Part shown: positions 3 through 23,250 of the stretch, piece by piece
How positions within the stretch are numbered: the first letter of the stretch is position 1
How the letters are laid out: each line of letters begins with the position of its first letter
Assembly (NCBI GenBank): GCA_030427505.1
Contig: JAUICH010000030.1
Span: 1 to 62,060 of the forward strand
Reading direction: 5' to 3'
Source of the DNA: Verrucomicrobiia bacterium
GTDB lineage: Bacteria > Verrucomicrobiota > Verrucomicrobiia > Verrucomicrobiales > DEV007
Length of the DNA stretch: 62,060 nucleotides
Notes under the pieces: generated by a model
What the model was told of the DNA's origin: nothing
The model's input: the letters and a program-made list of their open reading frames with translations, nothing else
The model's database searches: none
Program-made: the position numbers and the translations under genes

Positions 3-3000
3 CGCAGCGCGGGCACGGGAGGCATCAACATCGTGGCTGGTTGGGACGGCTCCACGGGCCTCACCAACGGTATCGATACCCTGACCCTCGCCGACGCGGA
101 CACCTCTGATCCCTCGGGCATCTTCGACATTAGCGCGATCCTGGCCACGATGAATGATGGGGATGTGGACAACGACGCCGCCGGCCGGGATGGCGGTTCC
201 GTGACCATTGGGCAGAACGCTTCATCCGTCTATGCGGTGAGTGTCGGCAGCCGCTATGGCGATACGAATCTGGCCGCCCATGACCTCACGATGAAGGGCA
301 GTAACAGCAACTCCGGTGGCTCGGGGGAACGGTATTCCCAGCTGGGCTTCCGGGATACGGGCTATGAATATGAGCTGGCTCTCGCCAACGCCGCCAATGA
401 AGAAAAGAACGAATGGTGGGGGAATGCCGCCGGGAACGTCCGCGGCAAAGACTACATCACGGATCTGGGCGGCACCCGGCTGGACGACGGCGAATTTGAC
501 GGCGCGGGCAGCGGCGCCACGGGGGACATCAATGTCGAACTCAGCGGACGGCTGGAAATGCGCACCAGCGATGACAACCGCGGCTACGTGCAGATCGGCC
601 ACGGGGGCTCGGTCCGGCAGGGGATGGAAAACCACGATACCAGTTCCCGCCCCACCTTGACGACGCGAGACGGCATCACCCTGGATGCCGGGGATACCAA
701 CCGTCAGTTCTTCGGCACCACTTGGCGGACCAATACGGAAACCAATCCCTTTGAAGGCGCGGATTTCATCGTGGACGGCGACATCAACATTCATGTCGGT
801 GAATACATCTTCATGAACGCGGATGACGATGCGATTAATGACACGACGGATTTCGCCGGCGGAGACGGCAGCACGGGCATGTATGCCCAAATCGGCCACG
901 GTGGTGACGAAAACGTGGGCAGTTACCATGGGAATATTTCCGTAATCGCGGAAGGCACCCGGGGAAGCACGGGCGTTGGCATTGAAATGCGGAGCGGCAA
1001 CGGGCACTCGCGCTTTGCTCAGATTGGCCACGGGTCCAACTCCGAAGGTAACCGCCGCACCATTCTCGACCAGCGTACCGACGGTAACATCACGGTTCGC
1101 GCGGAAACGGGAGCCGTGCGGATGATTGGCTACAGTCTGCTTCCGGACGTGGACGAAAACACGGCTCTATCAGCCAGTTCGGGTTTGGATTCCGAACATC
1201 AGTACAGCCCGGTGCAGATCGGCCACGGTGGCGCCTATGCCAGCCAGGCCACCACACATGCCACCAATCCCGCCGTGTCCGGAGTATCGCCGATTCTCCC
1301 GGACAACTCGGCCTTTGGAAACATCTATGTGTTTGCCGGTGGAGTCTTTAACGATCCGGAAGTTGGCGAAGTCGGCATCCAAGCCGAAGCCGGAAATCAG
1401 CAGGCATCTTACGCACAGATCGGTCACGGCGGCTACAACCTGCGGGCCAATTCCAGTGGGGCGAGCACGGGCTTCAGCGGGAACATTGACGTCATTGCTG
1501 ACAAGGGCTCGATCTACTTTGCCGGCGGTGAGGAAAAACGTTCTCAGCGCGACTGGGGCTATGGGTTCAACCACGCGATGATCGGTCACGGCGGCTACAA
1601 CGTGGATGGCGACTACGAAGGATACATCAATGTTAGCGCGGGACAGGGCACGGGCGCTACGTCGGGAGACATCACCTTCCTTTCCGGCCGCATGCAGTAC
1701 AGCCCGGCGCAGATCGGTCATGGTGGAGCCAATTCCAACGGCAACGTTTCGGGAGACGGCACGTCGCAGATTGACGTCCTGGCCAGCGGAGACATCACCT
1801 TCACCTCCCGGCCTTCCGGACCGACGGATGCCTACAATCTTTCGACCGACTACCAAAACGACTGGAACAACAATGCCACGCGAACCAGTGGCAACCGCAC
1901 GCAGAACAACCTGCGCAATAAGTACTGGGAGACCAATGTCCGTTACGCGAAGATCGGCCACGGCGGTTACAACAGCGACATGACCGTGACGAATAACGAC
2001 ATCAACGTCACGGCCCAAAACGGCAGCATCGGATTCACGGCGGGAGACAACAACCGGGACTTTATCCAGATCGGCCATGGCGGCTGGGAAGACGGGAGCG
2101 ACAATAACACCAGCGGTAATATCCTGGTTAGCGCGGAGAATGGGGACGTCATTTTTGACGCCTCCAGTGGTGGATTCCTTTCCTATGAGCGTTCGTCCGT
2201 GGGCGCCGAGGTTATCCAAGAAGCCAGGGGCTTGGAAGCTTTCGCCCAGATTGGGAACGGCGGTTACGAATACGACGGCGATCACACTGGCTCGATCACG
2301 ATCGATGCGGGTGGAGACCTCCTCATGTTCGGGCCCCAGAGCGGCGGGAATGTCGCCCAGGTCATGGACTTCGCGGGATTCACCGTTCGCGGCAGCACGC
2401 TGACCGCTTTCCAGGAAGCCACCAGCCGTCAACGGACCTATCAGGCGAGCAATACCAACATCGATCCTGGGACGATCGTTATTGATGTTACGGGTACCAA
2501 CGTGGTCGATTCCGACAATGGGGATGGCACCGGTAAGCTGATGCGCGGTTCCAATCAGGTCGGTACCGTGGACTATGCCACTGGCCTGCTTACGTTTACC
2601 GACACCGCGGAAACCAATGACGGCCTGATCCGGATCAATTTCGACTACAAGTTCAACGGCGGAACGAGCGTCAATGACGAACGCGCCCTGGAACTGGAAG
2701 CCGCTCTCCGGCCTGAGGATGCCAACCTGGCGCACGGAGGCGTCATTGCGGGGTCGGTTTCCGTGGTGATCGACGGAGACAACAGCGCGGGTCACCGCGC
2801 CGTGTATCACGACCTGCGTGGAGATGGGGTGCTGCGCGATTCCGCCGGTCAGTCCGTCGGGTCCATCAGCTACAATACGGGCCGGATCCGGTTTAACGAT
2901 ACGCTCAATGACTTTGCCACTCCGGACGAGGTGACGGTGAACTACAGCTACTCCGACGGGAACGCGGAGCGGGCTTATGTGCAGATTGGGAATGGTGGCT

Positions 3001-6000
3001 ACGGCGCGGCGGTGGGAGGCTACAGTTCCGCGGGCTCCAGCGGAAAGATCGATATCGACGCGGGCGGAGACGTGCGCGTGCACGGCGGCATTCACGAACG
3101 CAACTACGCTCAGATCGGCCACGGTGGTCTGGGTAACCAGAGCCAGCACGGCCAGGACCCCACCGTTGGCGATGGCGGCCTGATCGACATCAATGCCGGT
3201 GGCGTCGTGGAGATGCTCGCCGGACGTGGCTTCAGTTACTACGACAACGAAGGCTACGCTCAACTCGGCCATGGCGGCCGGGATTCGGATGGCCGGCACC
3301 AGGGCAACATCAATATCGTGGCCGGTTCGGGCGAAGCCGCCAGCATTCCAGGCATGGACGGCGGGGGTGCTTCCGCCCAGGGCTTGATCTTCACCGCGGG
3401 CGTGGGACGGGAAGCCTACGCACAGCTCGGTCATGGCGGATACGGCTCCCGGTCGCATTCGGCTAACGGCAGCGGAGGAGAAACCGGACTGGTTGGCGAC
3501 ATCAATATTGATGTGGATGGCGATGTCCGCTTTACCGCGGGAACACTGCTGTCCAACTTCCGCGACTACGATGACGGCCGGGTCTATACCCAACTGGGCC
3601 ACGGCGGCTACGACGCGGACACCGCCAACGGTAGTGGCGCCAATGGCCGGGTAGCGGGGCACACTGGTTCCATTGACGTTCTCAGCGAAAGCGGGGGCAT
3701 TTATTTCAGCGCTGGCGATCACGAAGCGAGCGGCTTGGGCGAGGGTTACGGCATTCTGCACTATGCCCTGCTGGGTCATGGCGGGTATGGCACGAATGGC
3801 TCGCATTCGGGCGACATTACCGTCACTGCCGCCACGGACATCGTTTTCCTGGGGGGTGAGCGCACGCACGATGACTCCACCGACAAGCGGAACTTCGCGA
3901 TGCTGGGCCATGGGGGCGATTCCGACGCGGGGAATTTTGGCTCTCTGAACCCCAATGGGTTCGACACGCATACCGTCACGGCCGGGAATGACATTGTCTT
4001 CACCGCGGGTGAAGGCCGCCGTAGCTGGGTCATGCTGGGCAACGGCGGGTATGGTTCGCGCGGCGATTCCGTGGCGAACCTGAACGTTAACGCGGGTGGT
4101 GACGTTCTCTTCACCGCCGGCATCGGGGTGGATGCCGGCTACCAGATCAATGGCGAGATGTCCAAGGAGATCGACATCGGAACCTTTGAGCTTGGCTGGG
4201 CGCCGCTGCGCTATCGCGGCGTGAACGCGGACTCCCTCATCATCGCGATCGATGGAGCGGCTGATGGAACGGGTGACTTTATCGACGATGGCAGCGGAAA
4301 CATCATCGACCCAGATAACATCCTCGGCCTGGGCGTTGACGCTCAGATCGGCCGCATTAACTACAACACCGGGCATGTGCGGCTGGATGTCGTCATCGAC
4401 GGCGACACGGGCAATGACGTCATCACCAAATACACCACTGGCAGCGGCAGCAGCCTGAGCAACCGGACCGAAGGCGCCGGCGTCAATGGAGCCTTGGACT
4501 TGGTGGCGGACTCCGGGCCCGCGCTTAGCATTACCGGAATAGCCTCCGCGTTTAACAATACCCGGGGCGGGATCAACAACATCGAAGAAACGGTCGATAC
4601 CCTGAACGAAAACATTGGGATCCAGCCCGGCAGCTTCACGATGACGCTTCCTGACGGAACGGTCATTACCGATGTGGATGGCGGTAGCGGTACCGGATTA
4701 CTGATCCGGGACGCAAATCCGGGGGACATCGTCGGCCAGATTGACTATGTCAACGGCGCCTACGGGTTGACGGAGATCATCAACCCCGCTGGCAAGACGG
4801 GTGTCACGGTGGACTACGCGGTGGATCATGCGATCGGTTCCGATCTCTCCTTTGCCCAGTTGGGGAATGGCGGTTATGAGGCGGACAACCCGAATGATAA
4901 TGCCGACACGGTGGGGGAAACGGGTAACATCCATGTGAAGCTGGATGGCGACCTGAAGTTCCACGCCGGGGACGGGAACTATAGCTATGTTCAGCTCGGA
5001 CACGGCGGTCCCGACAACAAGGGGGCGCACAGCGGTAGCATTACCGTCGAAGGCCTGACCGGCACCAACAGTGGTGGCGTGGTGGAGTTCCTGGGCGGCA
5101 CCGCCAGCAAGGATACCACTGACGCCCGCGCCTACGCCCACCTGGGTCATGGCGGCTACGACGCGGACGGCAACCACTTCGGCGACATTACCATCCGGTC
5201 CGGAATGGATGCCATGGGCAACGGCATCAATTTCCGGGGCGGTCTGTTGCAGGACAACTACGTGCAGTTGGGCCATGGCGGCCGCGACTCCCGTACCGGA
5301 ACGGCCGATGAAGCATACGGCCTGCATGGAGACATTATTATCGACACGGTGGGTGATATTAACTTTGTGGCCGGAACGATTGGCGGGCCGGATACGAGCA
5401 CTCAGGACGGCCGCATCTATGCGCAGCTCGGTCATGGCGGTTATAACGCGGACACGAAAAGTGACGGCACGAACCTGGACGTGAACGCCGTGGACTACGC
5501 GGGGCCGGTGGGTCACAACGGCGAGATTTCCGTCACCACGTCAGAGGGAGACATCAACTTCATCGGTGGCGATACCGCCGCCGGCAGCGAAGGCAATGGC
5601 ACCGGGAAAATTCATTACGCGCAACTCGGTCACGGCGGTTACGGCGCGCAGGGCGATCACCATGGAGACATCTCCGTCGAAGCGACTCTGGGGAAAATCA
5701 ATTTCCATGGCGGCACGACTTCGGACAACAACAATTACAAATACAACTATGCCCAGCTGGGCCATGGCGGCGCGAACGCCCGGGGTCAAATGGGCCGGCT
5801 GGGTGAAGCCATCAGCGTGATGGCGGGTGGCGACATTACCTTTGAAAGCGGAGACGGAAACAATGCCCGCCGCAGCTACGCCCAGCTCGGTAATGGCGGC
5901 TTTGACGCGGATTATCCGAACCCGGGCGATCCGGGTTACGCGGACAATGACAATGCGCTGGCGGTTCTCCCGACAGCCGCGGAACGCGTGGGCAACTGGG

Positions 6001-9000
6001 CGGACATCACCGTGGAAAGCCTGGACGGAAACATCACGTTTACGGCCGGTGACAGCATCGAGTCCTACATTCAGATCGGCAATGGCGGCAACTACAACGA
6101 TGGCGATCACGGCGGTGACATCACCGTTTATGCGGACCGCGATGGCAGCAACCTGGGCAGCGGCAGCGGGAACATCAGTTTCGACACTTCGAACGGATCT
6201 TCCGGCACACGTTTCGCGCAGATCGGTCATGGGGGTATCTATGCTTCCGGAGGACACACGGGTGATATCGATGTGGATGCCGGGGCGGCCATTACCTTCC
6301 GCGGTGGAGCCGGCGGGAGCTATGCACAGATCGGACACGGTGGCCGGAACAGTCACCGGATGGGCCGGGGTGGGAACTCGACCTCCGGTTACTCCTACAC
6401 CAACAACAACGACCGCTACTATCCCGGCACCCATACGGGTAGCATTACGGTGCACTCGGGTTCCGACCTGACCTTTGCCGCGGGCACGACTTCCGGTGAC
6501 CAGGCCTACGCGCAGATCGGTCACGGCGGGGTGCGGAACGCGGCCATGGAAAACGAAGGCCACACCGGCGCCATCGAGGTGATCAGTGGTGGCGCGATCT
6601 CATTCACCGCGGGCGACCGCAACCAGTCCTACGTGCAAATCGGGCACGGAGGCTATGAAGCCTTCGGTAACCACGGCATTGTGCTGGCGGAACAGAATGT
6701 CACGGGAGACACGGTGCTGAGTACCGCGGCCATGGCTGGAGACGGCACGGAAGCGTTCCTGGGCAGCGCCTTTACCGTGGGCAAGATCGTTCCGGGTTCG
6801 GTGACCATCACGGTTAATTCCGGCACGCCGGTGGTCTACACGGACGACGGTAGCGGGAACATTGTTGACGGTGGTTCCACCAGGGTGGGCCGGATCGAGT
6901 ATTCCACGGGCCGGGTCTTCTTCGAAACCGCGATCGACGCGGCTGGTGACGGTACCACGGCGGACTACGGCTTGTTTGAAGTGGTGGACGACACCAGCAG
7001 CACCATCCTGGTGGAAGCGGTGGATGACATCACGTTCTCGGCGGGGACGAATCCGACACGGGGCGATCAGGCCTACGCCCAGATTGGCCACGGCGGCGCG
7101 ACCGCGAACTTCAGCAATACCCGCCTGCTCATTCCGCAATTGGCGGCCCAGCCTGACATTACCACTACCACGGCTTACCACCTGAATACGCCTAACACGA
7201 CACCCGTGGGAACGGGGGGCGACGTGACGGTCCGCACCACGGGTACGGATGCCAACATCAACTTCACGACTGGCGCGGACAGCGACACCTATGCGCAGAT
7301 CGGTAATGGGGGCCGGGCCAACCGCGGCAAGCATTCCGGGAATGTGACGGTGGACGCCACGGGAGACGTGACCTTCCTGCGGAACAATCCGCTGGCCACC
7401 ATCACGGACCAGGCCTACTCGGCGGTTACGGGTAGCGATGTGAACCTGGGTTCCAATGTGGACGTGGCCGCGGGTACCTTGACCATTACGGTGGACCTGG
7501 ATGGCTCGAATGGCGGTCCTTACCATTTCTATGACAACGGCGAGGGTGGACTTGTGGACGTGGACGGAAACATCGCGGCCGCTGGAACCCAGGTGGCGAC
7601 CATCGACTATGACGACCGCCGGCTGACTTGGGATGGGGCTTACGATATCAACCCCGGTGGGGATGAGGTGACCGCCACCTACAGCTACACCAACGCCCTC
7701 CGGGCCTATGCCCAGATCGGGAATGGCGGCCAGGATTCGGAAGCCGAAAACGGCCGTCTGAACATCATCGCTCACACGGGCGACATCGACGTTTCAGCTG
7801 GCGGCGATGTCCGGTTCCACGCGGGCAATCACTACCAGTCCTATGCGCAGATCGGGAATGGCGGTTACGACACGGACGGGAAGAGCAGCGGGGAGATCAA
7901 GGTGGAATCCGGCGGCATCATTGAGTTTCTGGCGGGAGAAGGTTCCACCACCAACTCGGATGGGTCCTATGCCCAGATCGGCCACGGTGGCCTGGGGTCC
8001 AGTGGCGCCCACAGTGGCGGCATCGAAGTGACGGCCGGTGACGGTACGGCGGGTAGCCACAATGGCGGCCTCTATTTCCAGGCGGGCGACACCAATGGCG
8101 CCTATGTGCAGCTGGGCCACGGGGGCACGAATGCCAAAGCGGGCGGCAACCAGTCTCTTACGGACGCGGACTATGGGGCGCCCGCCGGATTCAGCGGAGA
8201 CATCACCGTGCACAGTGTGGGTTCCATTACCTTCCTGGGTGGCACCACCAAGAACCTGGAAGGCAATACGGATGGCAACCTGTATTCCCAGTTGGGCCAC
8301 GGCGGTTATCAGACCGATACGACAGAAAGCGGAACGCTGGAAGATCCTAACACGGTAACCGATATCGCGGGCCACAGCGGAAACATCAGCGTGACCAGCA
8401 CGACGGGAGACATCCTCTTCTCCGGCGGCAGTCTGGCCAACGGCAGCCTGGGGGATGGCCGCGGCCGTTTCCACTCGACCCAGCTGGGTCACGGCGGTTA
8501 CTCAGCCTATGGCAACCACCACGGTAACATTTCCGTGGAAGCCACGTTGGGAGAGATCGCGTTCCGAGCGGGATCCTCCACCGACAATTCCAACGAAAAG
8601 ATCAACTTCGCGCAACTGGGACATGGCGGCTATGGGGCCCGGGGCGATCACGGCTTGACGGGTGAAATGATCAGCGTCCTCGCGGGGGGCGACATCAGTT
8701 TCTACAGCGGGGACGGAAATAATGCCCGCCGCAGCTATGCGCAACTGGGTCATGGTGGTTACGACTCGGATAATCCGAACCCAGCCGCGCCTTACTACCA
8801 TCCTGACCCGGGCAATACGGACTACGGTCCGACCGCCGCGGAACGGGTGGGGAACATTGCCGACATCATGGTGACTAGCACGGACGGAAGCATTCTCTTC
8901 CAGGCGGGCGCTTCCATCGACTCCTATATCCACCTCGGCCACGGCGGCATCAACACGGATGGCGACCATGTTGGGAACATTACAGTGAAAGCGGATGAAG

Positions 9001-12000
9001 ATGGCAGCAATAGCGCCGGCGGCGGAGGGAACATCACCTTCGACGCCTCCGAGAACGCCAACAGCACGCACTACGCCCAACTGGGCCACGGGGGTTACCA
9101 GACTTCTGGAGACCGGACGGGATTTATTGACGTGGATGCCGGCGGGGCCATCACCTTCACGGGTTCCCGGAACAATTACGCGATGATTGGGCACGGCGGC
9201 CGGAACGATCACCGGGTGAACAATGACAATTCGGACGGGGGCTCGACCGATCCCGTGAAAGAGAATGCCAATGACCGGTATTACCCGGGCGTCTTCTCGG
9301 GCGACATTTCCGTGGATGCCGGAGACGACATCTTCTTTACTTACAATGCCAGCACCGGCAGTAGCACCGGTTCGCTGCAAATCGGGCACGGTGGATTCCG
9401 AACCTCCGCCACGGCGGACATGGGTCACAACGGCTCCATCACCGTCATCAGTGGTGGCGAGATCTACTTCGAGTCCGGGACGCGGGGGCAGACGAGTTCA
9501 CAGATCGGTCACGGCGGTTACGAGTCCTACGGCAATCACTACGGAGATATCTTTGTCCAGGCCACGGACGGCGTTTCGATGATCGCCTCCACGACCACCG
9601 CGTCGGCGGATCAGTCCTACACAATGATCGGTCACGGTGGTTACGACGCGGACTTCAACGCGTCCCGAGCCACCACCATTGAGGGCGCCTGGGGAGATCC
9701 GAATCCCTCCCCGCCGGCGCAGAACGCCCCGACGGGCTTGATCGAACAAAGTGGCACCTGGTTCCACTTGAATACGCCCATCACGAATCCCGGTGGGAAC
9801 TCTGGAGCCATCACGGTGTTGTCCGGGGTGAATGAAGCGGGAGATATTCTAAACGGAGATGCCTCCGTTACCATCACGGCTGGTTTCGAAGACGACACCT
9901 ATGCGCAGATCGGTCATGGTGGCCGGGCGACGAATGGCGATCACAACGGCGACATCATCGTTCGCGCCACGGAGGATGTGAACGTCACCGGCGGCCAGGA
10001 CGTCGAGGACGAAAACTATGCCCAGATCGGGCACGGCGGCCTATACACTGACACTAACTCAGGCTCCGGCTACAGCGGTAAGATCTGGGTGGAAGCGGGC
10101 GTGGATGGCGACGGTGGCGCGGTCAATGTCACCGCCGGAACAGGCGAAGAAAACTATGCCATCATCGGCCACGGGGGACGTGGCGCGGATGGCGACCACA
10201 ACGGAGACATCACCGTTCACGCGGACAGCGGTATCTCGGTACTGGGTGGTTCGGGGAATGTCACCTTCGCCCAGATTGGCCACGGGGGCCGGGAAGCGAC
10301 TGGGGCCTTCTCCGGTCTCATTACGGTGGTTACCGACAACGGTCCGCTTACTCTCCGCGACGGCTCGGATAACAACTCCTACTCCATGATCGGCCATGGC
10401 TCGCATGAGGGCACCAGCACGGGGACACGGCAGGGCGCGATCTACATTGAAGTAAACGGCGAAACCTCCCTGGAGGATACCGGCGGCCCGGGCTTCCGCA
10501 TTGGCCACCGCACGACGACGGGTGGGGGCATCACGAATACCGAGCTGGTTTTCTTGAGCGAGACGCTGGACTTCGATGCCAGTTCCGCGGCCACTGGATT
10601 TGACTTCAGTGGTGGCGGAGACGCCACCGTGCTGGCTACTCAACTGGAAAACAACCTGGGGGTGGGGAACGTGACCTTTGGCGCTCTGGGCGGCAACACG
10701 CTGAACTTCCAGGAAGCCATCGACTACACCAGTTCCTACGACTTCAGCATTTTGTCGGAAGGCGACGTGCAGGTGAATACGGGCATTCGCAACCGGGGTG
10801 ACGGCAATCTATATGTCATCGGCGGTTGGGATAAGGATACCGGCCTGGCGGATCTGGACTTTACTTCGATGCCTCCGCTGAGCCTGCCGCTCTTTGACGC
10901 GGAGGTGCTCCGCGCGGATGCCACCCAGGCCGGCTTTGGCGTGAGTGGGGGTTCCGTCATCGTGGGTGGCACGGGCGCCACGGACGCTGGCTGGTTTGCC
11001 TCCGGCGAAGGCCTGACCTTTGCCGCGGGTGACTCGGTGCAGGTCCTGGGCGGCGGCACCACGGGCGCCTACGGACAGATTGGCTATCGCACCATCAACG
11101 CCAGCGACGATGCCCTGGGCGACATCGAGGTGGTGGCGAAAGACGGCGGTGTCCTGGTCCAGGGCGGCACGGACACGGATACCTACGCGCAGATCGGTCA
11201 CGGTGGAGATTACTCCACCGATGGCGACCTGACGGGAGACATCCTGGTGGATTCCATCGGGGATGTGGTGCTTCAGGGCGGGGACGACAACCGCACCTCC
11301 GCGCGCGTCGGTCACGGCTCGGTCTATAACGAACTGGACATCGCCGAGGGGGACATCACCATCGACGTTAGTGGCGGTTCCCTGCTCCTGACCGGAGGCA
11401 CGGACCAGAACATCTCCTATGCCCAGGTGGGCAATGGCGGCCAGGACAGTGGTCTGGGAGACAAGACGGGAGACATTACCGTCTACGTTTCCCAGGATGT
11501 GACTCTGACCGGCGGCACGGCGGACAACACCTTTGCCCAGGTCGGGCACGGTGGTTTGAGCGCGGACAACGTCACGCTGGGCACCCCGGAAGATACCGAT
11601 CCCGGTACCGTGCTACTGGACGTGACCATGATCATGGCCGGAAACGATGTGAACCTGAATGGATCCACGACCTCCGGAGCGGACAGAGCCTATGCCCAGA
11701 TCGGGAACGGCGGTCTGAATGCCAATGCGCAATCCAGCGGGAACCTGATCGTGATGGCTGCGAATGACGTGAACCTGAACGGCGGTATCGGCACGGGAGA
11801 CTACGCGCAGATCGGCAATGGCGGCGCGGGCAGCTCTGGCGACATGGAGGGCGCGACCTTTGTGGATGCCGGGAATGATGTGAACCTGAATAGAGGCTCC
11901 GGTACCAATGCCTATGCCAAAATCGGCTTGGGCGATCACATGATCAATACTGGCATTGGCGGCACCGGGACGCGCAGCGGGGACATTCAGGTATCCACTG

Positions 12001-13226
12001 GCGCGGACCTGAATTCCACGGGGGGCATGGTGGGCCATGCCGATCCCCTGGTGGGTGGTCCGAGCAGCACGGAAGGAAACACCTTTATCGTCATCAGTCC
12101 GGTGGATCCGGCGGATGGCGTGCTGGGAACCGGTACCATCACCACGGACGCGGCCACGGTATTCAGCAGCGGCGAGTCCGGCGAACTGCGGATCTACATC
12201 CCGGCGCGGGCACAGAATCTGATGGCGGTGGGAACCCAGCTGAACGGCACCCTCTTTGTCGGCTCGGCCGCCACGGGAGATCCCCAACGGGCCGACGAGT
12301 TCTTTGCCTCGGAATCCGAGCACAGCAACCTGTCCGATTCGGTGGACTTGGCCGATCTTTATACGGGACTCACGGATAGCACTTCCCAAGAACGCTACCT
12401 GGAGAACAAGACGGTCATCCAAGTGACCGAAGACACCGCCAACTACTCGACCACGCTGGGCAATTACAGCCTCTACCTGGACGAAAGCGATGGCGGTTCC
12501 TCCGGCGGTAGCGGCTCAGGTTCAGGCTCTGGAACTGGTACGGATACCGGTTCTGGCACGGGCAGCGGATCTGGATCGGGCTCCGATTCCGGAGACACCG
12601 ATACCGGCGGTACTGGTGGCGACGAAGGTATTGGCGGCACCGGAGTCACGGATACCGGAACCGGCACGGAGACTGAAGGTATGGGCGGCGCCGGCGGCTT
12701 GGCCGGCGAGAATCCGGACCTCGTCACGCTTCCTGACGGCAGCGATGCGGAGGTGCTGGTGGACGGCCTGCTCCTCGTTCAGGATGGTGTGGTGGGCTTT
12801 GCCCCAGGAACCGTCTCGGACACCTTTGTGCCGATTGGCGGTGTGATTTCGGAAGAATTTCTGGACGATTACCTGGGTTCCGAACAGACCGACGATCTCG
12901 GTGACAGCCTCGGCAATGCGACGGTCACTGGCTGGGGCGAACCGGGCGTGTTTGCCTTCGTGTTCAGCTACAGTGCCACGGGCGATCAACCCACTTCGGC
13001 TTCCACCTACAACAGCTTCCTGATCTTTGGCGGGGTTGGCGGGCCGCCCGTGGCGATCGGGATCGACAACGGGGACGAGATCAAGTCGATGATCGAATCT
13101 CAACTGTCGGCTCTCGGTCTGACCGAGGTAGATCTGCTGGAACTGATTGAAGGAGACGGAAATGGCGAAGGAGATGGAGACGGCGCCGAGGGGGATGGCG
13201 ATGGCGAAGAAGCGATTGACGAATAA
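3..13226 (+). CDS. Giant beta-repeat surface/secreted protein (5' end outside window)
   Basis: The frame is open from the first bases, so the true start and signal region lie upstream; the GTG at 33 is only the first in-window start. By reading, about 60 copies of a motif (Y/F)-(A/V)-Q-(I/L)-G-(H/N)-G-G occur from about residue 185 to 3960 (counted from 33), usually followed by a strand pattern like G-D-I-x-V-x-A-G-G-x-I-x-F-x-A-G. Six copies of a different 60-70 residue module interrupt them. A Gly/Ser/Thr/Asp linker covers about 4150-4230, then a roughly 165-residue end domain and an acidic Gly/Asp/Glu tail. Such proteins usually form parallel beta-helices and are often exported by two-partner secretion. 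No autotransporter barrel, LPXTG or clear sorting motif is seen at the C-terminus. No exporter gene is in the window. Adhesin or surface-fibre function is inference; the coding call is very strong. Confidence 0.93.
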   Translation, partial: RSAGTGGINIVAGWDGSTGLTNGIDTLTLADADTSDPSGIFDISAILATMNDGDVDNDAAGRDGGSVTIGQNASSVYAVSVGSRYGDTNLAAHDLTMKGSNSNSGGSGERYSQLGFRDTGYEYELALANAANEEKNEWWGNAAGNVRGKDYITDLGGTRLDDGEFDGAGSGATGDINVELSGRLEMRTSDDNRGYVQIGHGGSVRQGMENHDTSSRPTLTTRDGITLDAGDTNRQFFGTTWRTNTETNPFEGADFIVDGDINIHVGEYIFMNADDDAINDTTDFAGGDGSTGMYAQIGHGGDENVGSYHGNISVIAEGTRGSTGVGIEMRSGNGHSRFAQIGHGSNSEGNRRTILDQRTDGNITVRAETGAVRMIGYSLLPDVDENTALSASSGLDSEHQYSPVQIGHGGAYASQATTHATNPAVSGVSPILPDNSAFGNIYVFAGGVFNDPEVGEVGIQAEAGNQQASYAQIGHGGYNLRANSSGASTGFSGNIDVIADKGSIYFAGGEEKRSQRDWGYGFNHAMIGHGGYNVDGDYEGYINVSAGQGTGATSGDITFLSGRMQYSPAQIGHGGANSNGNVSGDGTSQIDVLASGDITFTSRPSGPTDAYNLSTDYQNDWNNNATRTSGNRTQNNLRNKYWETNVRYAKIGHGGYNSDMTVTNNDINVTAQNGSIGFTAGDNNRDFIQIGHGGWEDGSDNNTSGNILVSAENGDVIFDASSGGFLSYERSSVGAEVIQEARGLEAFAQIGNGGYEYDGDHTGSITIDAGGDLLMFGPQSGGNVAQVMDFAGFTVRGSTLTAFQEATSRQRTYQASNTNIDPGTIVIDVTGTNVVDSDNGDGTGKLMRGSNQVGTVDYATGLLTFTDTAETNDGLIRINFDYKFNGGTSVNDERALELEAALRPEDANLAHGGVIAGSVSVVIDGDNSAGHRAVYHDLRGDGVLRDSAGQSVGSISYNTGRIRFNDTLNDFATPDEVTVNYSYSDGNAERAYVQIGNGGYGAAVGGYSSAGSSGKIDIDAGGDVRVHGGIHERNYAQIGHGGLGNQSQHGQDPTVGDGGLIDINAGGVVEMLAGRGFSYYDNEGYAQLGHGGRDSDGRHQGNINIVAGSGEAASIPGMDGGGASAQGLIFTAGVGREAYAQLGHGGYGSRSHSANGSGGETGLVGDINIDVDGDVRFTAGTLLSNFRDYDDGRVYTQLGHGGYDADTANGSGANGRVAGHTGSIDVLSESGGIYFSAGDHEASGLGEGYGILHYALLGHGGYGTNGSHSGDITVTAATDIVFLGGERTHDDSTDKRNFAMLGHGGDSDAGNFGSLNPNGFDTHTVTAGNDIVFTAGEGRRSWVMLGNGGYGSRGDSVANLNVNAGGDVLFTAGIGVDAGYQINGEMSKEIDIGTFELGWAPLRYRGVNADSLIIAIDGAADGTGDFIDDGSGNIIDPDNILGLGVDAQIGRINYNTGHVRLDVVIDGDTGNDVITKYTTGSGSSLSNRTEGAGVNGALDLVADSGPALSITGIASAFNNTRGGINNIEETVDTLNENIGIQPGSFTMTLPDGTVITDVDGGSGTGLLIRDANPGDIVGQIDYVNGAYGLTEIINPAGKTGVTVDYAVDHAIGSDLSFAQLGNGGYEADNPNDNADTVGETGNIHVKLDGDLKFHAGDGNYSYVQLGHGGPDNKGAHSGSITVEGLTGTNSGGVVEFLGGTASKDTTDARAYAHLGHGGYDADGNHFGDITIRSGMDAMGNGINFRGGLLQDNYVQLGHGGRDSRTGTADEAYGLHGDIIIDTVGDINFVAGTIGGPDTSTQDGRIYAQLGHGGYNADTKSDGTNLDVNAVDYAGPVGHNGEISVTTSEGDINFIGGDTAAGSEGNGTGKIHYAQLGHGGYGAQGDHHGDISVEATLGKINFHGGTTSDNNNYKYNYAQLGHGGANARGQMGRLGEAISVMAGGDITFESGDGNNARRSYAQLGNGGFDADYPNPGDPGYADNDNALAVLPTAAERVGNWADITVESLDGNITFTAGDSIESYIQIGNGGNYNDGDHGGDITVYADRDGSNLGSGSGNISFDTSNGSSGTRFAQIGHGGIYASGGHTGDIDVDAGAAITFRGGAGGSYAQIGHGGRNSHRMGRGGNSTSGYSYTNNNDRYYPGTHTGSITVHSGSDLTFAAGTTSGDQAYAQIGHGGVRNAAMENEGHTGAIEVISGGAISFTAGDRNQSYVQIGHGGYEAFGNHGIVLAEQNVTGDTVLSTAAMAGDGTEAFLGSAFTVGKIVPGSVTITVNSGTPVVYTDDGSGNIVDGGSTRVGRIEYSTGRVFFETAIDAAGDGTTADYGLFEVVDDTSSTILVEAVDDITFSAGTNPTRGDQAYAQIGHGGATANFSNTRLLIPQLAAQPDITTTTAYHLNTPNTTPVGTGGDVTVRTTGTDANINFTTGADSDTYAQIGNGGRANRGKHSGNVTVDATGDVTFLRNNPLATITDQAYSAVTGSDVNLGSNVDVAAGTLTITVDLDGSNGGPYHFYDNGEGGLVDVDGNIAAAGTQVATIDYDDRRLTWDGAYDINPGGDEVTATYSYTNALRAYAQIGNGGQDSEAENGRLNIIAHTGDIDVSAGGDVRFHAGNHYQSYAQIGNGGYDTDGKSSGEIKVESGGIIEFLAGEGSTTNSDGSYAQIGHGGLGSSGAHSGGIEVTAGDGTAGSHNGGLYFQAGDTNGAYVQLGHGGTNAKAGGNQSLTDADYGAPAGFSGDITVHSVGSITFLGGTTKNLEGNTDGNLYSQLGHGGYQTDTTESGTLEDPNTVTDIAGHSGNISVTSTTGDILFSGGSLANGSLGDGRGRFHSTQLGHGGYSAYGNHHGNISVEATLGEIAFRAGSSTDNSNEKINFAQLGHGGYGARGDHGLTGEMISVLAGGDISFYSGDGNNARRSYAQLGHGGYDSDNPNPAAPYYHPDPGNTDYGPTAAERVGNIADIMVTSTDGSILFQAGASIDSYIHLGHGGINTDGDHVGNITVKADEDGSNSAGGGGNITFDASENANSTHYAQLGHGGYQTSGDRTGFIDVDAGGAITFTGSRNNYAMIGHGGRNDHRVNNDNSDGGSTDPVKENANDRYYPGVFSGDISVDAGDDIFFTYNASTGSSTGSLQIGHGGFRTSATADMGHNGSITVISGGEIYFESGTRGQTSSQIGHGGYESYGNHYGDIFVQATDGVSMIASTTTASADQSYTMIGHGGYDADFNASRATTIEGAWGDPNPSPPAQNAPTGLIEQSGTWFHLNTPITNPGGNSGAITVLSGVNEAGDILNGDASVTITAGFEDDTYAQIGHGGRATNGDHNGDIIVRATEDVNVTGGQDVEDENYAQIGHGGLYTDTNSGSGYSGKIWVEAGVDGDGGAVNVTAGTGEENYAIIGHGGRGADGDHNGDITVHADSGISVLGGSGNVTFAQIGHGGREATGAFSGLITVVTDNGPLTLRDGSDNNSYSMIGHGSHEGTSTGTRQGAIYIEVNGETSLEDTGGPGFRIGHRTTTGGGITNTELVFLSETLDFDASSAATGFDFSGGGDATVLATQLENNLGVGNVTFGALGGNTLNFQEAIDYTSSYDFSILSEGDVQVNTGIRNRGDGNLYVIGGWDKDTGLADLDFTSMPPLSLPLFDAEVLRADATQAGFGVSGGSVIVGGTGATDAGWFASGEGLTFAAGDSVQVLGGGTTGAYGQIGYRTINASDDALGDIEVVAKDGGVLVQGGTDTDTYAQIGHGGDYSTDGDLTGDILVDSIGDVVLQGGDDNRTSARVGHGSVYNELDIAEGDITIDVSGGSLLLTGGTDQNISYAQVGNGGQDSGLGDKTGDITVYVSQDVTLTGGTADNTFAQVGHGGLSADNVTLGTPEDTDPGTVLLDVTMIMAGNDVNLNGSTTSGADRAYAQIGNGGLNANAQSSGNLIVMAANDVNLNGGIGTGDYAQIGNGGAGSSGDMEGATFVDAGNDVNLNRGSGTNAYAKIGLGDHMINTGIGGTGTRSGDIQVSTGADLNSTGGMVGHADPLVGGPSSTEGNTFIVISPVDPADGVLGTGTITTDAATVFSSGESGELRIYIPARAQNLMAVGTQLNGTLFVGSAATGDPQRADEFFASESEHSNLSDSVDLADLYTGLTDSTSQERYLENKTVIQVTEDTANYSTTLGNYSLYLDESDGGSSGGSGSGSGSGTGTDTGSGTGSGSGSGSDSGDTDTGGTGGDEGIGGTGVTDTGTGTETEGMGGAGGLAGENPDLVTLPDGSDAEVLVDGLLLVQDGVVGFAPGTVSDTFVPIGGVISEEFLDDYLGSEQTDDLGDSLGNATVTGWGEPGVFAFVFSYSATGDQPTSASTYNSFLIFGGVGGPPVAIGIDNGDEIKSMIESQLSALGLTEVDLLELIEGDGNGEGDGDGAEGDGDGEEAIDE
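3103..9560 (+). repeat. Third-order repeat inside the giant gene (copies A, B, C)
   Basis: Blocks starting near 3103, 4975 and 7836 carry elementary repeats in the same order with matching insertions. Copies B and C share features such as a GDGNNARRSYAQLG segment (near 5851 and 8709), a TAAERVGN segment and an NDRYYPG segment. The DNA of B and C near 5851 and 8709 is still clearly similar. The B to C spacing is about 2.86 kb. Copy A is shorter and more diverged. Confidence 0.75.
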
Positions 13227-16772: not shown

Positions 16773-17291
16773 ATGTGGTGATTGCGAAACATCTAGACGA
16801 AATCAATTAAGTCATAGAGCCGGGAATTTTTATAATCGCGGTCTTCTTTTCCAATCTCCGCGTTGCTCGATCAGTCGTTGAGATTGCTCAACTCCCTCTT
16901 CGCGCCTTGAATCTGAAAAAGAATCCTTCGCAAACACTACACTAGGGACTCGAGGTAAACACACTTTGGGAGTAAAAAGCTTATTGGTGATCAACGAGTT
17001 AGGACGAACGTTCCGTTCATTTTTTTGCTGACAAAAGCCGCTTTGAGGTCCATCTTTCCTCAAACCCTGCCAGGCGGCTGAGCGAGACTATTGTTTCCTC
17101 AAGCGAAACGACTTCATGGGAGTGCAGTGCTGAAAAGCCTGTGTTAACGTGGGTCGCTCGGAGACCATCAGTATCGGTCTTACCAGTCGTCGGGTGGGGT
17201 TCGCTTTTTTTGGCTGGGAACACTCCGGAAATCCCGCCATTCTCCGGTCGCAGGCGGGCATCACGCCCTCTGCTCCTAGTTGACCGGTGTC
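16773..17291. other. Long intergenic region with a diverged repeat relic
   Basis: No gene recognised. About 16838-16935 keeps the word order of the preceding MITE (GGTCTTCTTTT, then CGTTGCTCG, then TTCGCGCCTTG, then AATCCTT), so it looks like an older relative. The rest, including the leader before the haem protein gene, shows no clear structure. Confidence 0.45.
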
Positions 17292-20200
17292 ATGACCCCC
17301 TTGAGCGCCCTCCTCAGAAGCGTTTTCGCTTTAGCCGCTGTTTCATTGGTTTGGGTGGCCCTTCCTGTTCGTGGGCAATTGGATGATTGGCCCGCTCCCC
17401 TGTCTCCGGAAGATGCGCTGGCGTCCATGAAAGTGCGGCCCGGACTGGAGATCGAGCTGGTAGCCGCGGAACCCCTGGTGATGGACCCCGTCGCTTTCGA
17501 CTGGGACGCTTCCGGCCGGCTTTGGGTCGTGGAGATGCGGGATTACCCTAACGGGCTCACCTGGAACCAGCCGGATGATCCCATGAATGTGCCGGGTGGG
17601 GCCGTGAAGGTACTGTCCGACTCCGATGGCGACGGCCGATATGATGAAGCGACAACGTTTCTGGATGGCCTCCCCTATCCCACGGGCATCAAGGTGTGGA
17701 AGAAAGGCGTTCTCGTCACTGCGGCGCCGGAGATTTTCTATGCCGAGGACACCGATGGCGATGGCGTGGCGGATGTTCGCGAGACTTGGTTCGAGGGGTT
17801 TTCGCGTTCGAATCAGCAGCACCGGGTGAATGGCCTGGCCTGGGGCTTGGACAACTGGCTGCACGTTGCCAATGGCGATGGCGGCGGCGTGATCGCCACG
17901 CCGCACGGACGCGACGAGGTGGACATTCGGGGTAACGATCTGCGGATAAATCCCGTGACCAAAGAGGTGGCGCTTCTCTCCGGAAAAACCCAAAACGGGC
18001 GATATCGCGATGACTGGGGGAACTGGTTTGGGTGCAACAACAGCAATCCGCTCTGGCACTACCCGCTGCGCTACGAATGGCTGGAGCAGAACAAGGCCGT
18101 GGCTCCGCCACGCGCCTATGTGGATGTGCCTGAAGAACCCGGAGCCGCGCCGGTCTATCCCCGGAGCGAGACCTTGGCACGGTTTAATGATTACGATCGC
18201 GCGAATCGTTTTACCTCGGTCTGTGGACCCACGATCTATCGGGACATCGCGCTGGGGGCTGAGTTTGAGGGGAACGCTATTGTTTGTGAACCGGTCCACA
18301 ACCTGGTGAGCCGGCAGGTCCTGACTCCCAATGGTGCTACCTTCACTTCGACCCGTGCGCCGGATGAGCAGGAGAACGAGTTTCTGGCTTCCACGGACAA
18401 CTGGTGCCGCCCGGTTTCCGTCCGCACGGGTCCGGATGGCGCGCTGTGGATGGCGGACATGTATCGGCTAGTTATTGAGCACCCGGAGTGGATCCCGCTG
18501 GAGTGGCAGACCAAGCTGGACCTTCGCGCGGGGAGCGATCGTGGCCGGATTTACCGCATTTATCCAGCCGGCAAACAGCCGGGTCCCGTTCCAGCTTTCG
18601 ATCCATCCAGCGGCGCAGCGCTGGTGGCCCTGCTCGAGAGCCCGAATGGAACGATCCGGGATTTCGCGCACCAGAGCCTGCTCTGGGGTGGAGATAGGGA
18701 CCGAAAAGAAGAAGAAGCCACCTTGGCGGCTCTGCGGCAGATGGTGAGGGTAGGAGACCGGCCCACGGCGCGGATGCACGCTCTGAGTGTCCTGGCTGGA
18801 CTGGGAAGATTGGACATCGACTCCCTGGTTGTTGCCCTGAGCGATACCCACTCCGGCGTGGTGAGAAACGCGCTTTGCTTTGCAAAAGACAGGGTTTCCG
18901 CCCGCCAATTGGCCGCTCTGGTGAAGCCACACCTGGGCGACGCCTTTGTCGCGAAAGAGCTGGCGGGTGTCCTTGGGGAGATGAAGGAAGAGGCGGGAGA
19001 AGATGAGAACGCGCCCCTACTTCTGGCCGCCTTGTTGCTGCGCTACCGGGACGAACCGTATGTGACGGCAACGGCGCTCAGTTCGGTGAACCGGGACAAT
19101 CTTGGCGCTCTCTTGAGGCGATTGAGCCTGGCTTATACGGATGAGAGGGGTTTTCGAGAAGAACTAAGCCAAATGGTTCCTGATGTGGAAGCGCCACCGG
19201 TGGTGTTGATGGAAAAGTTGGCGGCCATGACCATGGAGTTTCATGAAGACTCCGCGCGGGGGCGGCTGGTGGAAACCCTGGTTTCCGCCATGGACCGGGA
19301 GGCAGACCGCGGAGGCGGTGGTTCTGATGGGGTGGCTAGGCCCTGGCAGATAGCGGTATTGAACGGTTTGCTTAGCGGGGGAGCCGGGCTGGATGATGTT
19401 TCATCGAGCCCGGCACAGCGGAACAAACTGAACCTCCTGGTTTCGAGAGCCCGAGGGGCCTTGGTTGGAGAGATTCTTCCAGAAGAGCAGCGGGTGGATG
19501 CGATTCGTCTCCTGAGTTGTCGTGCGGTATTCAATGGGAAGGAAGACTTGGAGCTCCTGATTGGCTGGCTTTCTCCGCGATATTCCCCCGGCGTACGCGA
19601 GGCTGTTTTGAAAGCCTTGCGCCGGGCCGCGCACCCGGACACAGCGGCCAACTTGATCGCGAGATGGGACTCTCTGGGCCCCGCCTCTCGTGCTGGTGCG
19701 CTGGCTTTAATGGTAAGCCGTAGAGAATGGACATTGTCTCTTTTGGGGGCCCTGGAGGCGAGAGAGATTCCTCCGACCCTGATCGATGCGGCCACGCGTC
19801 AGCGGCTGACGGGTTCCGGTGACGAAACGATTCGTTCCCGCGGGCAGGCGATCTTTGCCGCCGCCATCAGTGCGTCCCGCCAAGAGGTACTGGACCGTTA
19901 CGAGGCGGCGTTGGAATTGCCGGGAGATCCCAAGGAGGGAAAAGAGGTCTTTGGCGGGTTGTGTGTGGCCTGTCACCGCCTTGAGGGAGTGGGCAATGCG
20001 ATCGGGCCAGACCTGACCGCACTGACGGATCGTTCCCCCGAGTCTCTACTTGTAGCCGTTCTGGATCCGAACCGGGCGGTGGAAGACAAGTTCATGACCT
20101 ACCAGATTGAAGCGAAAGACGGCAGTCAGATCTACGGCCTGATTGGCGACGAGAGTGCCAATAGCCTCACCTTGCGTGGGGCCGACGGAAGCGAACAGCA

Positions 20201-20768
20201 GATGCTTCGCTCCAACATAGTTTCCATGACCGCCTCCGGCCTTTCGCTGATGCCGGAGGGCTTGGAGGGCGCACTCTCCCCGCAGCAGACCGCGGATCTC
20301 ATCGCTTACCTGGGAAGTTTGAGCCCGGTCGAGACGCCGGTGCCCGTAGTTTCCGCGCGCGTGCGGCCCCGGGAGGGTGGAGCCTTCGAGCTCCGGGCCT
20401 CCAAGTGCCGTGTTTCCGGAACCCATCTTGTTTTCGACAAAACCGTGGACGCCTTGACTGGATGGGATTCAGAGGATGGCCGTGCCGAATGGACCGCCGT
20501 TCTGGACCGTCCCGGCGACTACACGGTGGAATGGGAGTATGCAGCTCCGGTAGAGTCCGCGGGAGTTCCCTGGCAACTCCTGGTAAACGGAAAGAAAGTT
20601 CTTTCCGGCGCCATTGAAAGTACCGGTGGGCGGGACACTTTTCGAACGACCGGGATCGGCCCGGTTTCCCTGGCCGGAGGGGACAACAAGGTGGTGCTGA
20701 AATCCGGTGACGGCGCGAAAGGCCCGTTCCTGGACCTTCGCATGATCCGGTTTGTGCCGGGCCGGTGA
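17292..20768 (+). CDS. PVC-type haem-binding CxxCH dehydrogenase-like protein
   Basis: A protein of about 1,158 residues from the ATG at 17292 (a TTG four codons earlier is possible). Signal peptide about residues 1-28. An N-terminal six-bladed propeller of the PVC membrane-bound dehydrogenase type follows, with DSDGDGRYDEATTF and EDTDGDGVADVRETW calcium-loop-like segments. A HEAT-like helical middle (about 440-860) leads to a cytochrome c part with C-V-A-C-H near 891-895 and a downstream S-L-M-P-E axial-Met candidate. The last roughly 130 residues look like a small beta-sandwich. Proteins of this family are exported and common in Planctomycetes and Verrucomicrobia, often beside polysaccharide genes. 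Exact redox substrate unknown. It stands alone here. Confidence 0.9.
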   Translation: MTPLSALLRSVFALAAVSLVWVALPVRGQLDDWPAPLSPEDALASMKVRPGLEIELVAAEPLVMDPVAFDWDASGRLWVVEMRDYPNGLTWNQPDDPMNVPGGAVKVLSDSDGDGRYDEATTFLDGLPYPTGIKVWKKGVLVTAAPEIFYAEDTDGDGVADVRETWFEGFSRSNQQHRVNGLAWGLDNWLHVANGDGGGVIATPHGRDEVDIRGNDLRINPVTKEVALLSGKTQNGRYRDDWGNWFGCNNSNPLWHYPLRYEWLEQNKAVAPPRAYVDVPEEPGAAPVYPRSETLARFNDYDRANRFTSVCGPTIYRDIALGAEFEGNAIVCEPVHNLVSRQVLTPNGATFTSTRAPDEQENEFLASTDNWCRPVSVRTGPDGALWMADMYRLVIEHPEWIPLEWQTKLDLRAGSDRGRIYRIYPAGKQPGPVPAFDPSSGAALVALLESPNGTIRDFAHQSLLWGGDRDRKEEEATLAALRQMVRVGDRPTARMHALSVLAGLGRLDIDSLVVALSDTHSGVVRNALCFAKDRVSARQLAALVKPHLGDAFVAKELAGVLGEMKEEAGEDENAPLLLAALLLRYRDEPYVTATALSSVNRDNLGALLRRLSLAYTDERGFREELSQMVPDVEAPPVVLMEKLAAMTMEFHEDSARGRLVETLVSAMDREADRGGGGSDGVARPWQIAVLNGLLSGGAGLDDVSSSPAQRNKLNLLVSRARGALVGEILPEEQRVDAIRLLSCRAVFNGKEDLELLIGWLSPRYSPGVREAVLKALRRAAHPDTAANLIARWDSLGPASRAGALALMVSRREWTLSLLGALEAREIPPTLIDAATRQRLTGSGDETIRSRGQAIFAAAISASRQEVLDRYEAALELPGDPKEGKEVFGGLCVACHRLEGVGNAIGPDLTALTDRSPESLLVAVLDPNRAVEDKFMTYQIEAKDGSQIYGLIGDESANSLTLRGADGSEQQMLRSNIVSMTASGLSLMPEGLEGALSPQQTADLIAYLGSLSPVETPVPVVSARVRPREGGAFELRASKCRVSGTHLVFDKTVDALTGWDSEDGRAEWTAVLDRPGDYTVEWEYAAPVESAGVPWQLLVNGKKVLSGAIESTGGRDTFRTTGIGPVSLAGGDNKVVLKSGDGAKGPFLDLRMIRFVPGR

Positions 20769-22821: not shown

Positions 22822-23250
22822 CTATTGCGGCGGAAACTCCACCAGCTTCCAGTACGCCTCAATCATCTCCAACAGGTCTGTAAAATCGCGGCCGGCGTGG
22901 GACTTCACAATGTAGCCGGAGACGTTCAGGTCGTAGGCGTTTGCCCGGTCCCGTTCGTCGCAGGACGTGGTCAGGACAAAGACGACCATCTTTTTCAGGT
23001 TGGGATCGGCGCGAAGTTCGGTCAGGAACTCAAAACCGTTCATCCGGGGCATGTTCAGGTCCAATAGAATGAGCACCGGATACGGCACCTTCTTTTCATG
23101 CTCGCCACGCAACATCGCAAGGCCTTCCAGGCCGTGGTGCGCACGGTAGATTTCGTTGGCGATCCGGGCTTTCTTCAGGGAGCGCCTGACGAGTTCGGCT
23201 TCGACGTCGTCGTCGTCAATGAGTAGAAGCGAGATGGGTTCGGCTGCCAT
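22822..23250 (-). CDS. Single-domain response regulator (Rcp1/CheY-like)
   Basis: A 142-residue receiver-only protein. It has the acidic D-D-D-D cluster near residues 11-14, the phospho-acceptor Asp in LLDLNMPRMNG, the Thr of LTTS and the Lys of IVKS. There is no output domain. The start at 23250 lies inside the 3' end of the kinase gene, giving a 35-bp overlap and implying coupled translation; a longer reading from 23358 lies wholly in the kinase and is rejected. Receivers of this type (cyanobacterial Rcp1) pair with sensor kinases, so the adjacent kinase is the likely phosphodonor. Confidence 0.92.
   Translation of the reverse strand: MAAEPISLLLIDDDDVEAELVRRSLKKARIANEIYRAHHGLEGLAMLRGEHEKKVPYPVLILLDLNMPRMNGFEFLTELRADPNLKKMVVFVLTTSCDERDRANAYDLNVSGYIVKSHAGRDFTDLLEMIEAYWKLVEFPPQ

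Follow-up and report, generated by a model that had tools for sequence, protein, structure and literature searches.

A giant open reading frame with an undescribed GHGG repeat in a Verrucomicrobiia bacterium, very probably encoding a two-partner secretion exoprotein

We analyzed a 62,060-nucleotide stretch of DNA from a Verrucomicrobiia bacterium (GenBank assembly GCA_030427505.1, contig JAUICH010000030.1, positions 1 to 62,060 of the forward strand; hereafter the window), which starts with a giant open reading frame (ORF) at positions 3–13226 of the plus strand that encodes dozens of copies of a Q(I/L)G(H/N)GG motif. The product is very probably an exoprotein of the two-partner secretion type (TPS, type Vb), built from an undescribed repeat. 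As the best explanation of the results as a whole, which we consider correct with a probability of about 0.7, this protein is a giant β-helical fibre that is secreted through the TPS route, possesses an inner ladder of His and Asn side chains, and has an attachment role. Both the fold and the type of secretion are familiar, whereas the family libraries used contain no description of the repeat.

The frame at 3–13226 consists of 4407 codons without a stop, and its stop codon ends at 13226. Its 5′ end is open, the window beginning at base 1 of the contig (C48 among the 56 contigs of this 6.4 Mb genome), and the N-terminus of the protein is off the contig. The motif array extends over positions 585–11826 (plus strand; residues ~195–3941) and contains 59 copies of [ILVM]G[HN]G, 55 of which have the full GG; the patterns Q[ILVM]G[HN]GG and Q[IL]G[HN]GG gave 45 and 43 copies, respectively. 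The sequence-only reading had described about 60 extremely regular copies over more than 3,700 residues. The span was confirmed, and the number is correct for the loosest pattern but not for the stricter ones, which give 43–55. The motif is far above the shuffle level (the strict form Q[IL]G[HN]GG occurred 0.01 times on average and at most once in 1000 shuffled proteins), but the spacing is less regular, with a median gap of 49 residues. The gaps are longer than the commonest unit of 37 residues because of loops and six inserted domains. The 55 motifs are encoded by 51 different DNA 15-mers, which indicates that the amino acids and not the DNA are conserved and that selection acts on the amino acids. 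The protein contains 824 Gly in 4407 residues and no Cys, and has an isoelectric point of 4.2. We obtained a ratio of nonsynonymous to synonymous substitutions (dN/dS) of 0.16 against a sister ORF on contig C41 (686 codons within the first 700 residues); in three further stretches dN was far below dS, with values that are only rough since dS exceeded 1.4. These results show purifying selection between the two ORFs. The repeat is real, and an artefact of assembly or reading frame was ruled out by the single 4407-codon frame, the paralogs on other contigs, and the occurrence of the repeat in many other genomes. Long antisense frames, such as 1170–4376 on the minus strand, were taken as by-products of composition.

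The repeat unit was determined from 2525 units of 30–75 residues that were cut at each motif from 76 ORFs of this genome and related genomes; the set excluded units outside this length range, one related ORF bearing fewer than four motifs, and those ORFs of this genome that bear fewer than six. Merging identical units gave 2463 distinct units, including 374 of 37 residues. The commonest length was 37 residues (383 of 2525 units), followed by 38 residues (197 units), and the 37-residue units gave the rough consensus YAQ(I/L)GHGGrsADGDHSGDITVtaaGDITFtGGsgdRA. Inspection by eye placed the extra length of longer units mainly in loops that follow GHGG or precede the next Y. One relative, in a gammaproteobacterial metagenome-assembled genome (MAG; locus L119), contains 27 motifs, the first 22 of which are unbroken and separated by gaps of 36–38 residues in 20 of 21 cases and of 43 residues in the other. 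This array is the bare form of the repeat.

The full ORF matched no Pfam or NCBIfam family above the cut-off, and 60 repeat blocks gave only one-member matches (best E values of 0.0028 and 0.024 in Pfam and NCBIfam, respectively). The curated haemagglutinin repeat families of both libraries did not match the GHGG repeat over threshold, and no PDB sequence matched it to an E value of 1. In the literature, no paper was found for AQIGHGG, and none of the matches listed for GHGG was relevant by title. A search for two-partner secretion and filamentous hemagglutinin in Verrucomicrobia found no paper, and the other literature searches did not reveal the GHGG repeat; most subscription journals were outside these searches, and an earlier description is possible. 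These results agree with the earlier statement that no characterised protein with this motif was known.

The assignment to type Vb secretion is based on the paralogs. One repeat block had 135 matches in its own genome, which contains 12 related long ORFs of 8266, 7388, 6324, 5771, 4419, 4407 (the window ORF), 3969, 2859, 2384, 2214, 2162, and 1477 residues. Together they comprise 51,640 codons from stop to stop, i.e., ~155 kb or 2.4% of the genome. The eleven ORFs other than the window ORF bear 1 to 128 motifs, two of them also being headless at a contig edge. Eleven of the 12 contain at least six motifs, the 2859-residue ORF contains one, and six ORFs contain 42–128 motifs each with inserts between them. 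The TPS domain PF05860 was found on all six intact paralog N-termini scanned (E values of 2.1e-26 to 1.7e-32), and 13 of its 14 matches across the genome were above the cut-off, with one below. Among nine intact paralogs, the TPS-domain motif was NPNG in six, NQNG in two, and NPSG in one. The intact paralogs also show signal-like stretches. The genome further contains six genes for ShlB/FhaC-type (TpsB) transporters above the Pfam cut-off, and the two that were scanned, which adjoin TPS genes on contigs C7 and C47, both possess POTRA_2. The ratio of 13 TPS places to six TpsB genes suggests that transporters are shared. We read the window ORF as a type Vb exoprotein because of PF05860 on the intact paralogs and the six ShlB/FhaC-type transporters. 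The two-partner route proposed in the sequence-only reading was supported by the TPS domains of the intact paralogs and by the TpsB genes, which occur in this genome and also adjoin some related genes; no TpsB gene was seen next to the window ORF itself.

Three ORFs are headless at contig edges (the window ORF, C41:3–18974, and one on C55), and three TPS heads reach contig edges (on C4, C54, and C45). The ends of C4 and C55 have 127 identical bases in common and are read as one gene, which leaves the heads at C54:3–863 and C45:1–531, both on the minus strand, for the window ORF and its C41 sister by elimination. Both of these heads contain NPNG, which does not occur in the part of the window ORF that lies on C48, its N-terminus being cut off. 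No further contig joining the heads to the window ORF or C41 was found among 16 matches in the assembly, and C54 and C45 showed no exact overlap with C48 or C41, so either head may belong to the window ORF.

We predicted the structure of a repeat block at residues 1655–1965 (positions 4965–5897, plus strand) using AlphaFold2 with 60 aligned blocks. The model had a mean predicted local distance difference test score (pLDDT) of 91.1 and a predicted template modelling score (pTM) of 0.92, and showed a β-helix with three main strands per unit (YVQL/YAHL, the ITV stretch, and the next hydrophobic stretch) and short bridges near GHGG and GxHxG. Among solved structures, the model matched solenoids, namely the β-helices of the autotransporter passengers Hbp (Z 8.8; 151 residues, 3.9 Å) and EspC (Z 8.3; 144 residues, 3.2 Å), alginate lyases of polysaccharide lyase family 6 (PL6; Z 8.2; 179 residues, 3.4 Å), and HxuA (Z 6.6; 161 residues, 5.0 Å); no viral structure matched the block at E ≤ 0.001. 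These predictions indicate that the repeat probably folds as a parallel β-helix and forms a long rigid fibre. From the lengths of the matched stretches, we infer one unit per coil, with the motifs stacked in register. The β-helix of the sequence-only reading was thus borne out by prediction only, through the model and its structural matches. Hbp and EspC are also secreted and were the top right-handed matches, but their identities to the block are 9% and 14%, and no protease or autotransporter family was found on the window ORF to an E value of 1. The PL6 matches, together with the ladder that these lyases possess (excerpts of PMC6879350), favor a secreted β-helix enzyme with numerous repeats, for example a polysaccharide lyase. 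We consider an enzyme highly improbable, given an identity to PL6 lyases of only 9–12% and the absence of lyase families PL1, PL3, PL6, and PL9 from the Pfam matches of the ORF (to an E value of 1) and of 60 blocks (to an E value of 0.1).

The direction of the motif His was examined through its substitutions. Since positions 5, 7, and 8 are set by the unit pattern itself and position 4 is restricted by it, only the remaining positions are informative. At the H/N position, the 2463 distinct units contained H in 2031 (82%), N in 266 (11%), Q in 50, L in 39, S in 20, F, M, and A in 12 each, and a few others. Charged residues accounted for 0.2% (D or E in 2 units and K or R in 4) and for 0% of the 374 distinct 37-residue units. 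In the latter, 0–1% were charged at the inward positions 19, 21, 27, and 29 and 15–23% at the outward positions 20, 22, 28, and 30. Strand alternation places the motif His together with A2 and I/L4 on one side of the strand. His is replaced by Asn, Gln, and hydrophobic residues but by Asp or Glu in only two units, which fits a buried stacking position. Moreover, neighbouring units were N-N pairs 87 times against 26 expected, which is a clustering that a ladder would favor. Judged from these substitutions, the H/N position resembles a buried structural ladder more than an exposed site for metals or glycans.

The sequence-only reading had suggested that the motif presents its His or Asn along one face of the β-helix to bind metal or glycan. 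The results did not support this proposal, because the H/N position exchanges with N, Q, L, S, F, M, and A, is almost never charged, and follows the pattern of inward positions in the other strands, and because the second common His, at position 15, is not kept together with it. The association of the two histidines was not significant over all usable units (p = 0.08), and in the 37-residue units the second His occurred beside N in 33 of 49 units and beside H in 115 of 263 (p = 0.003), which is opposite to the expectation for a metal pair; a coupled metal pair was rejected on these grounds. Binding of metal ions or glycans by an exposed His face along the fibre nevertheless has some points in its favor: the His is strongly conserved, one motif per coil would give a column, and the strand that carries the His also has a conserved, uncharged Tyr1 and Gln3. 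An exposed His ladder does exist in the leucine-rich repeat protein Crov588, whose His patches held 8 of the 14 sites of a polyoxotungstate cluster (excerpts of PMC9525666). Crov588 resembles the GHGG repeat in its column of His with one per repeat, but it is a leucine-rich repeat protein with the ladder on its concave surface. We regard a ligand face as unlikely, since the replacement pattern of the His fits burial better and the His is not coupled to the second one.

For a buried ladder, the closest likeness is to the PL6 alginate lyase BcelPL6. In excerpts of PMC6879350, an asparagine ladder is a polar residue stacked coil on coil at the inner side of a turn and linked to folding and stability, and the 10-step ladder of BcelPL6 is called the longest reported in 2019. 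The putative ladder of the GHGG repeat would share with it one polar residue per coil stacked at the turn. They differ in that the GHGG repeat prefers His over Asn (82% vs 11%) and that 10 steps compare with 42–128 motifs, with inserts, in six ORFs of this genome.

Taken together, the window ORF would represent the last 4407 residues of a giant verrucomicrobial exoprotein of type Vb. The missing part of the gene would encode a signal peptide and a TPS domain that direct the protein to an FhaC/ShlB-type pore, and outside the cell the protein would fold into a long, acidic, parallel β-helix. A single unit of at least 37 residues would make up each coil, whose three main strands would be YAQ(I/L)G-HGG, (D/N)ITV, and (D)IxF, and in YAQ(I/L)GHGG the A, the I/L, and probably the H/N would be directed inwards. 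Where the first strand ends, the H/N side chains would stack into an inner ladder of His and Asn, which would hold from 50 to more than 100 coils in register. The repeat itself would have a structural part, and the variable loops and inserted domains would make specific contacts. The product would be a long rigid fibre of the cell surface or matrix that attaches to cells, particles, or polymers. The most likely role is that of a secreted fibre, rigid and acidic, which serves attachment or the building of a matrix, as long TpsA proteins commonly do. FHA and HMW1 are long TpsA proteins with an attachment role, and EtpA is described as a long TpsA protein with an adhesion role in an abstract.

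Several observations weigh against this fibre reading. The N-terminus of the window ORF is not in the assembly, and its TPS domain is inferred from the paralogs. There is no TpsB gene on contig C48, where the upstream side of the ORF is off the contig, and 52 of 58 related loci are without a TpsB homologue, though many of these loci are cut. In regards to the fold, the Z values of up to 8.8 are near the stated background level of the tool, and the left-handed solenoid LpxD also matched with Z 8.4, though with a root mean square deviation of 12.8 Å. Foldseek gave no solved structure at E ≤ 0.001. Its first match was the Ca2+-dependent β-helical antifreeze protein 3p4g, which is likewise a regular solenoid, but with an E value of 0.011 and a probability of 0.09, and no Ca-binding repeat family was found on the window ORF to an E value of 1. 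The inward direction of the His rests on the substitution pattern and strand alternation, and the N-N clustering may stem from a common origin of adjacent units. Y1 and Q3, which are outward by alternation, were charged in only 0.7% and 3.1% of the 2463 distinct units, so that charge avoidance alone is no proof of an inward direction. Finally, the role in adhesion is putative.

The low charge at Y1 and Q3 would be explained either by the loop after GHGG covering them or by an interface. In the latter case, the uncharged Tyr-x-Gln faces would pack helix to helix and produce cables or a sheath around the cell. The contrast of Y1 and Q3 with the outward positions on the second and third strands of the 37-residue units (15–23% charged), as well as the many paralogs in one genome, agree with such lateral assembly. 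We consider it possible but rather doubtful, because the Tyr-x-Gln face could simply lie beneath the long loop that follows GHGG.

The fibre reading places the protein among TpsA exoproteins such as FHA, HMW1, HxuA, and EtpA, with which it shares PF05860 on the paralogs, ShlB/FhaC-type partner genes in the genome, large size, and long imperfect repeats with a predicted β-helix. In excerpts of PMC5422565, TpsA proteins are ~100–650 kDa in size and possess NPNG in the TPS domain and imperfect repeats in three-stranded β-helix coils. The present proteins differ in three respects: the units of at least 37 residues with GHGG or GNGG match no curated repeat family over threshold, the largest protein (8266 residues, ~804 kDa with the leader) exceeds that size range, and the 13 TPS genes outnumber the six TpsB genes. 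Very large extracellular proteins are also encoded by giant genes of Omnitrophota, Elusimicrobia, and Menyafoubacter, PVC lineages from related phyla, but the excerpts of PMC12057145 describe transmembrane helices and carbohydrate-active and toxin-like domains in those proteins and contain no mention of hemagglutinin.

We investigated the distribution of the repeat in named genome records, where the best 80 of 164 confirmed stretches corresponded to 58 loci. By title, 49 of the 58 loci are from Verrucomicrobiota, many of them from Verrucomicrobiales or Akkermansiaceae MAGs; the search across this phylum that the sequence-only reading had put forward thus found the repeat there. The other nine comprise one locus from Gammaproteobacteria, three from Alphaproteobacteria (one MAG), and one each from Roseibium, Armatimonadetes, Theseobacter, Planctomycetaceae, and Anaerolineae. 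The TPS gene on the Anaerolineae MAG contig (L128) is closely similar at both ends to those of the alphaproteobacterial MAG PL24a_bin.80 (L125, L136, and L138), and judged by this sequence likeness the contig is probably misbinned. In other species, too, PF05860 precedes the repeat: it was present in three of one set of five loci scanned (L119, L125, and L134; L127 and L141, without a match, are both cut at the N-terminus) and in all five of another (L085, L093, L117, L122, and L130). A TpsB homologue was present in six of the 58 loci, and the five homologues scanned were all ShlB. Among the genomes of the host's family, a profile (A2) built from 60 of the 311 matching blocks listed detected the repeat in 40 of 74 genomes and in 30 of 41 of good quality. 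In the host's order, it was detected in 44 of 386 genomes, 40 of which belong to the same family; outside the family the repeat is sporadic. A narrow profile (A1) applied phylum-wide matched 1 of 387 genomes, namely the host's own. Absences in these counts are soft, with at most 7 candidates per genome scored with A1 in the phylum and at most 6 with A2 in the order. Plasmid and phage records gave no match to the repeat at an E value of 1e-5.

Further features of the ORF are located on the plus strand. A long super-repeat has its first copy at 4803–6782 (residues ~1601–2260) and its second at 7665–9647 (residues ~2555–3215); in a tiled self-comparison, the sequence recurs 953–955 residues later with 45–61% identity. 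The C41 sister aligns with residues 1–4232 of the window ORF with 56% over 4472 columns. An inserted β-rich domain of ~100 residues with a VGxIxYxTG core was found by profile matching in six copies: two at 2367–2963 (residues 789–888 and 887–987), and one each at 4134–4448 (residues 1378–1482), 4515–4835 (residues 1505–1611), 6696–6986 (residues 2232–2328), and 7383–7700 (residues 2461–2566). The profile had 77 matches across the gene set. Structure prediction, for which the surroundings of the copy at 7383–7700 were folded, gave a model of the domain with pLDDT 82.4 and pTM 0.75. No solved structure matched this model at E ≤ 0.001, the top Z value of 5.6 being with phage baseplate and head parts. 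The best match of the profile to PDB sequences had an E value of 0.084, and Pfam gave only one-member matches among 45 members (best E value of 0.00079).

The stretch at 12492–13223 comprises a Gly/Ser-rich linker and, after it, a C-terminal region with an acidic tail, which is similar to the C-terminal regions of the longest paralogs; the tail is very acidic in the C7 paralog. The C-terminal region is possibly a sorting or anchoring signal. A C-terminal toxin on a long stick would instead make the protein a CdiA-like agent of contact-dependent inhibition, and CdiA proteins are also very long TPS exoproteins (excerpts of PMC5422565). Such a function is very unlikely here, since VENN occurred in none of 11 ORFs, the C-terminal regions are alike among the longest paralogs, and the last 608 residues of the window ORF showed no Pfam domain to an E value of 0.1, no search having been aimed at immunity genes.

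The rest of the window encodes two large proteins in which DUF7133 is accompanied by weaker HEAT and cytochrome c-like stretches (17280–20768, plus strand; 36216–39746, minus strand). On the minus strand are a histidine kinase with an ethylene-receptor-like N-terminal domain (23216–24400; ETR1_N, E value of 2.8e-31), an IS4/5-type transposase (24431–25126), a sulfatase with a C-terminus of the N-sulphoglucosamine sulphohydrolase type (32606–34273), and an ORF with an RHS repeat that extends to the end of the window (60155–62059; PF05593, E value of 1.3e-07).

Many giant genes that now carry no annotation would gain one from a model of the 37-residue unit, and the L119 array with its 22 unbroken motifs is a ready test object for the stabilisation of solenoids by side-chain ladders. 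A more far-reaching view, which we put forward as speculative and improbable, is that the 50 to more than 100 His/Asn rungs form the longest side-chain ladder known and, together with the outer uncharged Tyr-x-Gln column, which is equally conserved, act as a working device, giving either a stiffness that depends on pH or a face that joins helices into cables or lies along crystalline polysaccharide, with about a dozen such fibres as the main outer surface. If this were true, the fibre would be switched by pH through His protonation, or its uncharged face would bind helices or crystalline polysaccharide, and one genome would keep about 12 such fibres, at about 2.4% of its DNA, as the main outer surface of the cell.

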